Positions 52,606 to 57,222 of a stretch of DNA of 64,000 nucleotides are shown in pieces. Positions within the stretch are counted from its first letter, which is position 1; each line of letters opens with the position of its first letter. The stretch covers positions 62,001 through 126,000 of the forward strand of contig NZ_JABEND010000007.1 in assembly GCF_013002705.1 (NCBI RefSeq), written 5' to 3'. The notes below the pieces were generated by a model. The model saw only the letters and a program-made list of their open reading frames with translations. It did not search any database and was not told the DNA's origin. The stretch comes from Nakamurella aerolata (GTDB lineage: Bacteria; Actinomycetota; Actinomycetes; Mycobacteriales; Nakamurellaceae). Made by a program: the position numbers and the translations under genes.

Positions 52606-53736
<1,131 letters not shown>

Positions 53737-53846: not shown

Positions 53847-54362
53847 TCAGTCGCCACGCCCTCCCGTCGAGGTGATGGCGCGCGGCCCGCGGCCCAGCGC
53901 CACCATTCCGGACTGGACCAGTTCGCGGATGCCGTAGGGCTCCAACAACCGTACAAGTGCCTCCAGTTTGTCGGAGGTTCCGGTGGCCTCGACCGTCACC
54001 GATTCCGGCGCGACGTCGATCACCTTGGCGCGGAACATGTCCACCACGGTAGTCAGCTGGCCGCGGGTGGCCGCGTCGGCCCGCAGCTTGATCAGCAGCA
54101 GCTCCCTGGTGACCGAGGCATCGCCGGGCAGCTCAACGATCTTCAGCACGTTGACGAGTTTGTTGAGCTGCTTGGTGACCTGTTCGAGCGGCAGGTCGTC
54201 CACCGTCACCACGATCGTCATCCTGGATACCGTCGGGCTCTCCGTCGGGCCGACGGCGAGCGAGTGGATGTTGAACCCACGGCGGGAGAACAGTGCCGAA
54301 ACCCGTGCCAGCACACCGGGTTTGTTCTCGACCAGCACCGACAGGGTGTGACGCGATGTCAT
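53847..54362 (-). CDS. ilvN: Acetolactate synthase regulatory subunit
   Basis: Small subunit carrying feedback inhibition by valine. The 171 residues begin SRHTLSVLVENKPGVLARVS, an ACT domain with FSRRGFNIHSLAVGPTE, and continue into the second ACT-like domain (RELLLIKLRADAATRGQL, KLEALVRLLEPYGIRELVQS). The ATG at 54362 fits the family; the frame is open upstream only into a basic stretch. It lies 109 bases after ilvB. Confidence 0.97.
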   Translation of the reverse strand: MTSRHTLSVLVENKPGVLARVSALFSRRGFNIHSLAVGPTESPTVSRMTIVVTVDDLPLEQVTKQLNKLVNVLKIVELPGDASVTRELLLIKLRADAATRGQLTTVVDMFRAKVIDVAPESVTVEATGTSDKLEALVRLLEPYGIRELVQSGMVALGRGPRAITSTGGRGD

Positions 54363-54471
54363 CTGCGTTGATCTTCTCTCGTGCCTCGTTGGTGCATTGG
54401 TGACGTGCGTGCCGCGGTGGGTGCGCACCGTCCTGCGGTATCGGAGCGCGGTGCCGCGGTGCGGGCGGGTG

Positions 54472-56421
54472 TCATTCTTCGTCGAACAGTGGACGGATGT
54501 TCCTGGCAGCCATGATCTGGTCGTTACCGGTCCCGGCTGCCACCATCGGCCACACCTGTGCGTCCTTGCCGACGACGAAGTCCACCACCACCGGCCGGTC
54601 GTTGATCTGCATCGCCTGCTCGATGGTGCTGTCGACGTCTTCCTTGCTCTCGCAACGCAACCCGACGCAACCCATGGCCTCGGCCAGCAGCTTGAAATCA
54701 GGAATGCGCAGCTTGTGGGTGCCCAGATCGGTGTTCGAGTAGCGCTCGCCGTAGAACAGGGTCTGCCACTGACGCACCATGCCGAGGTTGCCGTTGTTGA
54801 TCACCGCGACCTTGATCGGGATGTTCTCGATGGCACAGGTGGCGAGTTCCTGATTGGTCATCTGGAAACAGCCGTCGCCGTCGATGCACCACACCGTGGT
54901 GTCCGGCATACCGGCCTTCGCGCCCATCGCCGCCGGCACCGAGAAGCCCATGGTGCCAAGGCCTCCGGAGTTGATCCAGGTGCGCGGATTCTCATAGTTG
55001 ATGAACTGTGCCGCCCACATCTGGTGCTGGCCGACCCCTGAGGTGAAGATCGTCTCAGGGCCGGAGATCGCGCCGAGCCGGGAGAGCACGTACTGCGGCG
55101 ACAGCGTGCCGTCGGCCGGTTCCTCGTAGCCGAGCGGGAACGACTCGCGGAGTTGGTCGAGTTCGGCCCACCAGGCGAACAGGTCCGACACCCTGCCGTC
55201 GCTCTTGATCCCTTCGATGGCCGTGATCAGTTGCCGCATCACGTCTTTGGCGTCACCGACGATGGGGATGTCGGCCACGCGGTTCTTGGAGATCTCGGCA
55301 GGATCGATGTCGGCATGGATCACGCTCGCCCCGGGCGCGAAGGTCCGCAGGTCACCCGTCACTCTGTCGTCGAACCTGGTGCCGATGGCGATCAACACAT
55401 CGGAGCGCTGCATGGCGGCCACCGCAGCGACGGTGCCGTGCATGCCCGGCATGCCGAGGTGTTGGTCGTGCGAATCCGGGAATGCCCCGCGCGCCATCAG
55501 CGTGGTGACCACCGGGATGCCGGTGAGTTCGGCCAGCTGCAACAACTCCGCCGACGCCCCCGACTTGATCACTCCCCCGCCGATGTACAACACCGGACGG
55601 CGGGCCGAGGTGATCAGGTCGGCGGCGGCGGCGATCTGCCCGCTGTGCGGCCGTGCGGTGGGCCGGTAACCGGGCAGTTGGATCTCCGGCGGCCAACGGA
55701 AGGTGGTGTCGGCCTGCAGGATGTCCTTGGGAATGTCCACCAGCACCGGGCCGGGTCGGCCCGTGGACGCAAGGTGGAACGCGGCAGCGATGACCGACGG
55801 GATCTCCTCGGCATCCTGCACCAGGAAGTTGTGTTTGGTGATCGGCATGGTGATGCCGCAGATGTCGGCCTCCTGGAAGCCGTCGGTGCCGAGCAGCGAG
55901 CGGCCGACCTGACCGGTGATGGCCACCAGCGGCACCGAATCCATGTTGGCGTCGGCGATCGGCGTCACCAGGTTGGTGGCACCGGGTCCCGACGTGGCGA
56001 TACAGACCCCGACCCTGCCGGTGGCCTGCGCGTAACCGGTGGCGGCGTGCCCTGCGCCCTGCTCGTGACGCACCAGGATGTGCCGCACCTTGGTGGAGTC
56101 CAACAGCGGGTCGTACACCGGCAGCACCGCACCACCCGGCAGGCCGAAGACCACGTCGACGTCGAGCTCTTCCAGACTGCGCACCACGGACGCCGCTCCG
56201 GTCAGCCGTTCCTGGAGCGGTTCCGGCGTGGCGACCCCGGCCTGCGCCTCATGGTCGCGGCCGCCGGACTCGTGAGCCGCCGGTTCGCCGGTGGCGTCGG
56301 GCCGGACGGCCGGTCGCCGCGGCGGGACCACCGCGCCGACACCGCGGTGGGCGGGGCCGGCGGATCCGGACGCCGCTGGGGCCGCGGCTTGGTTCGCGGC
56401 CACCGGACTTGGCGTTGTCAT
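54472..56421 (-). CDS. ilvB: Acetolactate synthase catalytic subunit
   Basis: Thiamine-diphosphate enzyme making acetolactate and acetohydroxybutyrate. The 649 residues have an Ala/Pro/Gly-rich N-terminus of about 75, then [40 protein letters not shown] (catalytic Glu), FAD-region [13 protein letters not shown] and the ThDP motif [19 protein letters not shown] followed by [11 protein letters not shown]. The ATG at 56421 is the first start downstream of the attenuator. It heads ilvBNC. Confidence 0.97.
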
Positions 56422-56516
56422 GCTTGGTCACCTCGAGGTTCTGGCACGGTGCTGGCGGTTGCGTCGTGCTGGACGGCAGTTGGAAGGCAAACAGTCGGAA
56501 ATCGTTACGGGGCAAC

Positions 56517-56554
56517 AAAAAACCCCTCGTCACCGGTGAGGTGTCCAAGGGGTT
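56517..56554 (-). terminator. Attenuator terminator of ilvBNC
   Basis: On the minus strand AACCCCTT (56554-56547) pairs with AGGGGTT (56527-56521), enclosing the palindrome TCACCGGTGA, and is followed by six Ts (56522-56517) and TGTTGCCCC. It is a textbook intrinsic terminator located between the leader peptide and ilvB, about 95 bases before the ilvB start. Confidence 0.85.
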
Positions 56555-56587
56555 GCGCGTCGTCGCGGCGATGGCCGCATCGACGCG

Positions 56588-56617
56588 CTAGGTGATTACG
56601 AGGAGGAAAGCGTGCAT
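56588..56617 (-). CDS. ilvB leader peptide MHAFLLVIT
   Basis: Nine-codon ORF (ATG at 56617, TAG at 56590-56588) reading Met-His-Ala-Phe-Leu-Leu-Val-Ile-Thr. It has consecutive Leu, Val and Ile codons and sits directly upstream of an 8-bp stem (56588-56555), then the terminator. It has no ribosome site, but the candidate promoter places the transcript start on its ATG, so it is probably translated leaderless. Part of the coding sequence (56603-56591) is complementary to the 3' half of the terminator (GGTGACGAGG). Ribosome stalling at the Leu/Val/Ile codons would control ilvBNC. Confidence 0.75.
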   Translation of the reverse strand: MHAFLLVIT

Positions 56618-56623
56618 GCAGCC

Positions 56624-56653
56624 ACCATAGGGGCGCTTTCTGGCAAGTGTCAA
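56624..56653 (-). promoter_or_regulatory. ilvB promoter
   Basis: TTGACA (56653-56648) and TATGGT (56629-56624), separated by 18 bases, make a strong housekeeping-type promoter. The -10 ends six bases before the leader peptide ATG. Confidence 0.7.
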
Positions 56654-56721
56654 CCAGGCGGGATCGGCGTCTCGCATGTTGGGAGCTGGGCCGGTTGGAC
56701 GTCAAGTGGGACACTGGAGCG

Positions 56722-57222
56722 ATGAGCAGCACCGTTCCCGCTCCCTCGCCCGGCCCGTCGAACAGCGCCGGCGCCGGCGGCCATGATCTCGGCGGCACCG
56801 ACGACGATCTCGAGAGCCTGTCGTCCGGCACCGTCAAGCGGTACCGATTGCCGTGGGTGGCGATCTTGCTGCCGCTGGCGCTGGTACTGGTGGCCGGGCC
56901 ACTGGCGAGCACCGGCGGCCTGCTGACGGTGCTGTGGCTGGTTCCGTTGCTCGCGCTGGTCTGGCTGCTGGTGACGCGTACCGTTGCCGCGCCGACCGGG
57001 CTGACGGTGACGGGCCTGCGGGGCCGGCGCCGGATCTGCTGGGACGGGCTGCGACTGCTGCGCGACGGGCAGCGGTGGGTGGTCGCGATCGAGCCCAACG
57101 ACCGGCGGACCAGGCTGCCGATGGTCACCGCGGTCGACCTCCCGACGCTGGTCGGGCTGTCCGACGAGCGCGCCACCGTGATCACCGGGCCGCTGCCGAC
57201 GGCCAAGCGCAAGCGCCGCTGA
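56722..57222 (+). CDS. PH-domain membrane protein
   Basis: 166 residues: polar N-terminus of about 35, two closely spaced transmembrane helices (AILLPLALVLVAGPLAST, LLTVLWLVPLLALVWLLV) and a C-terminal pleckstrin-homology-like segment (APTGLTVTGLRGRRRICWDG, LRDGQRWVVAIEPNDRRTRL). It resembles the bacterial PH-domain protein that lies next to ilvB in mycobacteria (low-molecular-weight antigen CFP-6). The ATG at 56722 follows GGAGCG. It is divergent from ilvB, whose promoter is in the gap. Function unknown. Confidence 0.75.
   Translation: MSSTVPAPSPGPSNSAGAGGHDLGGTDDDLESLSSGTVKRYRLPWVAILLPLALVLVAGPLASTGGLLTVLWLVPLLALVWLLVTRTVAAPTGLTVTGLRGRRRICWDGLRLLRDGQRWVVAIEPNDRRTRLPMVTAVDLPTLVGLSDERATVITGPLPTAKRKRR

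Follow-up and report, generated by a model that had tools for sequence, protein, structure and literature searches.

In Escherichia coli, the trpL, thrL and ilvL leaders are led by Shine-Dalgarno sequences and the position of the ribosome on their regulatory codons decides whether transcription terminates, as it very probably does at the locus described here. Leaderless attenuators, in which a short ORF senses cysteine, have reportedly been described in mycobacteria by Canestrari in 2020 and are said to be a case of translation attenuation. Leaders with a branched-chain amino acid (BCAA) peptide are known upstream of ilvB in several Actinomycetes. The family was predicted by Seliverstov et al. 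in 2005 (PMC1262725), and the same paper reports codon changes upstream of Streptomyces coelicolor ilvB as having no regulatory effect. The ilvBNC leader of Corynebacterium glutamicum (ilvB-II motif) stands before the same operon as ours and has a BCAA leader peptide and a terminator (PMC11857589, PMC10272879); its transcription starts one nucleotide from the leader start codon (PMC11857589), and a change of Val to Ala loses valine control (Morbach 2000, summarised in PMC11857589). The Corynebacterium leader ORF covers most of the first hairpin, the loop of which has been proposed to pair with the 3' side of the terminator (PMC10272879). In Streptomyces lividans, the ilvL leader preceding ilvBHC likewise combines a leaderless BCAA peptide, hairpins and a U-rich terminator (PMC8079986). 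Mycobacterium tuberculosis ilvB1 has the same kind of BCAA uORF, with GUA as regulatory codon, followed by a hairpin and an intrinsic terminator, and replacement of LVVI by AAAA abolishes its induction (PMC13236596). Finally, in E. coli pyrBI a ribosome too near the terminator blocks its folding with no antiterminator involved (PMC4824070), which resembles what we propose below.

We analysed the region upstream of ilvB in a window of 64,000 nucleotides (the whole stretch of DNA under study) from Nakamurella aerolata. Since leaderless ilv attenuators have already been published, this locus belongs to a known kind, of which it is an ordinary member. Taken as a whole, it very probably functions as a leaderless, ribosome-mediated, codon-sensing transcription attenuator of ilvBNC. 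Its components are the following:

56648..56653, minus strand: -35 element TTGACA, read from the sequence and invariant in 16 aligned genus leaders
56624..56629, minus strand: -10 element TATGGT, read from the sequence, after an 18-nt spacer from the -35
56588..56617, minus strand: leader ORF ATG CAC GCT TTC CTC CTC GTA ATC ACC TAG, encoding MHAFLLVIT
56600..56605, minus strand: two Leu codons, CUC CUC, directly 5' of GUA
56597..56599, minus strand: Val codon GUA, likely the main sensor codon, 11 nt before the first hairpin (H1)
56590-56588, minus strand: leader stop codon TAG, ending the nine-codon ORF
56555..56588, minus strand: hairpin H1, the first base of which is shared with the stop codon UAG
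56521..56554, minus strand: intrinsic terminator hairpin directly 3' of H1, from fold prediction and covariation over 33 sequences
56517..56522, minus strand: U tract of six U, the first two paired inside the terminator stem
56513..56514, minus strand: conserved TG, +9/+10 counted from the final G of the stem, matching the register of the elemental pause consensus
54472..56421, minus strand: ilvB, acetolactate synthase large subunit, the regulated gene (NCBIfam NF005860, 1112 bits)
53847..54428, minus strand: ilvN, acetolactate synthase small subunit (NCBIfam NF008864)
52660..53688, minus strand: ilvC, ketol-acid reductoisomerase (NCBIfam NF004017)

All the elements named in the initial annotation (TTGACA-N18-TATGGT, ATG, MHAFLLVIT, the stem-loop, the terminator and its six Ts) are thus present on the minus strand. 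A short ORF rich in Ile, Leu and Val lies upstream of ilvB, and a GC-rich terminator with a U run separates the two. The ilvB ATG, at 56421, is 95 nt past the terminator on the minus strand and has a Shine-Dalgarno-like GAGGTGA 6 nt upstream. The ilvB promoter sits in the short gap between ilvB and a divergent gene (56722-57222, plus strand) for a bacterial PH-domain protein (Pfam bPH_6, E 1.8e-5); beyond the latter lies ilvD, also divergent, the identity of which was confirmed by NCBIfam.

The promoter is the sole promoter-like site in the 701 bases between 56300 and 57000 (shuffled sequences give 0.0 +/- 0.1), and only six bases, GGCTGC, separate its -10 element from the leader ATG at 56617 (minus strand). 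On the basis of this spacing, transcription is presumed to start at or near 56617; starting at the ATG itself, it would leave the leader no room for a Shine-Dalgarno sequence. The locus has what characterises leaderless genes, a promoter that would place the start of transcription at the start codon together with the lack of a Shine-Dalgarno sequence. This arrangement is widespread: a TAnnnT motif lies 6-7 nt upstream of the leader start codon in all 16 genus loci scanned (5-8 nt were allowed) and, as read by eye, in the 17th genus genome (locus L111), and 32 of the 33 independent named loci have a looser xAnnnT 6-7 nt upstream of an in-frame start codon. The proposal of the initial annotation, a leaderless attenuator controlling ilvBNC, is accordingly well supported by conservation across the genus and the class and by experimentally studied relatives. 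Its leaderless character is not new, having precedents in C. glutamicum ilvBNC and S. lividans IlvL (PMC11857589, PMC8079986).

Our genus search covered 17 genomes, 16 of them with an ilvB match at E <= 1e-250, and a family-level search returned the same genomes. The whole layout is present in all 17 (16 by scan and G002, locus L111, by eye), and each of the 16 scanned loci shows a start codon after TAnnnT and a core of LLVI, ILVL or LLVL, followed by H1 and the terminator. In G002, the smallest of the 17 genomes (3.4 Mb), ilvB appears as two overlapping tblastn pieces (L176/L177), a split that resembles a frameshift or sequencing error; both the leader and the terminator of this genome appear intact. 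A second set consisted of the best 80 of at least 595 named ilvB loci, including some from non-actinobacteria and some with little upstream sequence. A scan of these 80 loci for a BCAA run and a -10 element selected 22, of which 17 were studied and, together with the 16 from the genus, make up our 33 leaders; because they were picked by the BCAA run and the -10, these two features are partly selected in them. The loci left out were L021, L055 and L075, for which the terminator pattern failed or was not tried, L044, with a -10 further off, and L079, an archaeal match lacking the pattern. A covariance model was built from the 33 leaders, to which the window and the genus genomes belong. At E <= 0.01 it had matches in 188 of the 200 order genomes and in 239 of the 296 class genomes (the two sets overlap); at the looser threshold of E <= 0.1 it matched 50 of the 80 named loci. 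Named mycobacterial relatives are among its matches. None of 33 of the 50 matching named loci had been used in building the model, and these constitute our independent set; two of them (L024 and L025) encode, as read by eye, the S. lividans IlvL peptide MRTRILVLGKRVG (PMC8079986), which provides a homologous leader in an experimentally studied relative. In its own genome the leader matches at E 4.8e-19, the window itself being in the model. Rfam at gathering scores detected two tRNAs only in the whole window and nothing at the leader, a permissive Rfam search of 56400-56720 gave no match, and none of the analyses run supported a riboswitch or a T-box.

The 105-nt leader RNA is predicted to fold with -47.7 kcal/mol (z -5.3, with 0 of 200 shuffles as low). 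For H1, 99.1% of the cells of the alignment of 16 genus sequences are paired (a value reached by 0 of 500 shuffles) and six cells are changed on both sides, versus 1.8 in shuffles. H1 and the terminator taken together over the 33 sequences are 96.9% paired, with 45 two-sided cells versus 18.5 in shuffles; the terminator taken alone shows little covariation within the genus. A simple terminator pattern, the rule of which admits loops of 3-8 bases, found 0 hits here and 0.4 in shuffles; the hairpin here includes an internal stem along with unpaired bases. The two helices are nearly adjacent: the distance from the end of H1 to the CCC of the terminator is 1-3 nt in 33/33 studied leaders, and the independent loci show neighbouring helices with a gap of 0-3 nt in 33/33, H1 starting at the expected base in 31. 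A ribosome at GUA masks the first bases of H1, and the gap then amounts to 0-4 nt, a range that holds across all 66 loci. Among the 33 leaders, H1 spans 30-61 nt and the linear distance from GUA to the terminator 38-71 nt, and the single-stranded path between them with H1 folded is 8-10 nt in every one; in the window, the folding of H1 cuts this path from 42 to 8 nt.

The codons upstream of H1 are constrained too. An in-frame GUA occurs in 33/33 leaders, always preceded by CUC or CUU (CU(C/U)GUA), and its distance to the first base of H1 is exactly 11 nt in every case. CUC accounts for 30 of the 35 Leu codons of the genus leaders, in preference to CUG. Within the ilvB genes themselves, GUA is rare, with 3 occurrences among 868 Val codons in the genus (16 genes) and 11 among 870 in the 17 others, so that a codon almost unused elsewhere in ilvB keeps a single, constant distance to a hairpin in different genera. 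It is in this geometry that the value of the locus lies. The independent loci have a Val codon at the -11 place in 30 of 33 (GUA in 23, GUC in 6 and GUU in 1). GTC was read there in L017, which has an additional GTA three bases further upstream, L027, L044, L046, L047 and L051, and GTT in L057. The script misparsed L028, where GUA is found by eye 10 nt before H1. L007 and L008 (Dactylosporangium and Virgisporangium) have CTT at -11 and GTA at -14, and their stop codon is also shifted onto H1, which looks like an independent shortening of the leader with a shifted sensor. GUA is likely the main sensor codon, together with the Leu codon. The role of its rarity as such is not self-evident; Elf and Ehrenberg regard codon rarity alone as an oversimplification and invoke selective tRNA charging. 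As for the Leu-Leu-Val-Ile-Thr run that had been put forward as the sensor, the Leu codon and GUA are invariant in the 33 leaders; the run as a whole does not hold, since the later codons vary and Thr is not conserved.

The front edge of a ribosome lies 12 nt past the first base of its A site. Placed accordingly on the 33 leaders, a ribosome awaiting Leu is predicted to leave H1 free in all of them, one at GUA to cover two H1 bases, one a codon past GUA to cover five, and one at the stop codon to cover the full seven-base 5' arm. From this geometry, H1 should form only with the ribosome waiting at or before GUA; the codon after GUA, often Ile or Leu, falls past the point that permits H1. In 14 of the 16 genus leaders, the last base of the stop codon is also the first of H1 and the peptides have 8-9 residues, whereas the S. 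lividans leader has 13 codons and runs into H1 (PMC8079986). In the other 19 of the 33 leaders the stop codon begins 10-34 nt past the start of H1, and a ribosome terminating at either position should melt the hairpin.

These distances suggest how the attenuator may work. The ribosome would load on the 5' AUG and translate the nine codons behind the polymerase. With Leu- and Val-tRNA charged, it would reach the stop codon, covering the 5' arm of H1 at 33 nt from the terminator in the window, and with H1 melted the terminator would form and transcription would end, a replete state that we infer from the geometry. With Leu or Val scarce, the ribosome would halt at CUC or GUA and leave H1 free, or nearly free, to fold, and the folded H1 would bring the ribosome and itself, across the shortened path, against the terminator and the RNA polymerase. 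In the least certain step, the last terminator pairs would then fail to close, allowing the polymerase to continue into ilvB. Li et al. 2016 reported for E. coli that an intrinsic terminator is repressed by a ribosome at a distance of up to about 27 nt, and compared this effect with pyrBI (PMC4824070). Relative to this range, a ribosome at the stop codon of the window is outside, and a ribosome held at GUA, once H1 has folded, is effectively separated from the terminator by 8 nt plus a helix. Given the constant 8-10 nt path and the 27-nt range in E. coli, we propose that H1 joins the stalled ribosome, itself and the terminator. One difference from pyrBI is that there the moving ribosome itself approaches the terminator (PMC4824070), whereas in our model a hairpin, gated by codons, would reduce the path. 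Stop-to-terminator distances vary between 18 and 49 nt across the 33 leaders and are only 18-26 nt in 13 of them (2 of the 16 in the genus); as this is within the E. coli range, the terminator of these leaders would not be fully free in the replete state.

We therefore put forward, as a tentative reading, that, in much of the Actinomycetes, the leader of ilvB represents an attenuator type of its own, devoid of a base-paired antiterminator, which would combine sensing of the trp type with steric antitermination of the pyrBI type. If this is true, codon-gated attenuation could run on proximity instead of alternative pairing. Neither the GUA-H1 spacing nor a proximity mechanism for ilvB had been described among the matches listed (titles and abstract starts), and the available portions of the papers cited here on the relatives contain neither the invariant GUA-H1-terminator geometry nor the missing competing fold.

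Instead of acting by steric block, H1 might be a polymerase pause hairpin, the position of the ribosome altering pausing or coupling and hence the efficiency of termination, a possibility that we consider serious if somewhat doubtful. H1 is placed where a pause hairpin could stand, pausing sites have been described as setting the coupling in attenuators (Li et al., PMC4824070), and the adjacency of H1 and the terminator could serve pausing or stability rather than a steric block. However, a pause by itself gives no reason for the terminator to fail once H1 has formed, and a gap as short and constant as that of the 66 loci suggests a direct interplay between the two hairpins.

In a classical attenuator of the trp type, the stalled ribosome would allow the formation of an antiterminator that shares bases with the terminator. 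E. coli trp and ilv are explained in this way, and the leader ORF of the window does carry regulatory codons before the terminator. M. tuberculosis ilvB1 and Corynebacterium ulcerans ilvB have likewise been drawn with antiterminators (PMC13236596 and PMC10272879, respectively), in the former case as a structure mutually exclusive with the terminator. Some mycobacterial H1 stems can be extended into the 5' arm of the terminator (L018), and the unmasked terminator probability is as low as 0.41 in L018 and 0.00 in L020; nevertheless, the extension lies beneath a ribosome stalled at GUA. We looked for such a fold with a masking test, in which the secondary structure is predicted for the RNA masked up to the ribosome edge and the engagement of the terminator 5' arm is recorded before its 3' arm exists. 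The test detected the competing fold in the three E. coli leaders used as positive controls, with values of 0.71 stalled versus 0.01 at the stop codon for trpL, 0.29 versus 0.00 for thrL, and 0.78 (0.68 at the last Ile) versus 0.36 for ilvL. By contrast, the window gave 0.17 at GUA, 0.14 at Leu and 0.16 at the stop codon, with no rise in the stalled state. With GUA in the A site, a rise of 0.2 was observed in 0/16 genus and 0/17 other leaders, mycobacterial relatives included, and with Leu in the A site in 0/16 and 1/17, respectively; two genus and six other leaders change in the opposite direction. Moreover, the H1 region is less complementary to the 3' arm of the terminator than shuffled sequences are (mean z +0.72 in the genus and +0.69 in the others), and the complementarity between the P1 loop and the 3' side of the terminator that is a feature of ilvB-II was found neither in the window's genus nor in the others. 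These leaders thus apparently have no competing RNA fold of the usual kind, which makes a classical mechanism unlikely; a tertiary or protein-assisted antiterminator may exist. We also computed the equilibrium probability of the terminator under ribosome masks for 32 leaders. With few exceptions (L018, L020 and L023 under a small mask, L040 at four codons), the terminator formed wherever the ribosome was placed, and this measure was dropped as powerless because the E. coli controls also stay at 0.74 or more.

It is more improbable still that the element consists of a partial terminator and a vestigial leader, with ilvB controlled by a regulator protein or by ppGpp rather than by codons. The S. 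coelicolor codon changes, reportedly devoid of effect (PMC1262725), would fit such a scenario, but codon changes do matter in M. tuberculosis (PMC13236596) and C. glutamicum (PMC11857589), and a rare GUA is preserved at a fixed distance across the class. The geometry recasts this old puzzle of codons that count in Corynebacterium and M. tuberculosis and reportedly not in S. coelicolor.

Lastly, the fold suggested in the initial annotation, in which leader codons pair with the 3' half of the terminator as an antiterminator, can practically be dismissed: the complementarity does exist (CUCCUCGU can form 8 pairs, one of them G-U, with ACGAGGGG, and pairing holds in 90.6% of the cells of the genus alignment), but it shows no sign of selection, with 0 two-sided changes and 500/500 shuffles scoring as high or higher, permutations that swapped leader cores were as low as the own cores in 1813 of 2000 cases for the genus, 666 for the others and 216 for all 33 (33, 0 and 0 of 2000, respectively, for the terminator's own arms as positive control), and any ribosome on the leader covers those very codons. 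Two loci, L092 and L093, had seemed by eye to compensate in this pairing, a reading rejected by the permutation and covariation tests.

The sequence that follows the U tract is also conserved. Counting from the last stem G, T is found at +9 in 33/33 and G at +10 in 30/33 of the studied leaders, and in 30/33 and 25/33 of the independent ones, respectively, as read by a script that misparsed L017 and L037. T9 and G10 are kept in several loci with an imperfect U tract, and +7 and +8 vary. The elemental pause consensus has GG at -11/-10, a pyrimidine at -1 and G at +1. The TG after the U tract is probably a pause that gives time for the decision. A GCAA:UUGC pairing across the U tract appeared compensatory by eye in a few loci; UUGC persists where the pairing is lost, and we therefore took it as a pause register. 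Among 32 other terminator-like sites in 464 kb of the genome, T9G10 occurs in 1 and a pyrimidine before G10 in 3, a weak control inasmuch as most of these sites are unlikely to be genuine terminators. Only one of the 32, L175, carries six consecutive U immediately 3' of the stem (the 464 kb comprise L156-L175 and the window). Strong intrinsic terminators seem to be rare in this genome, among which that of ilvB stands out.
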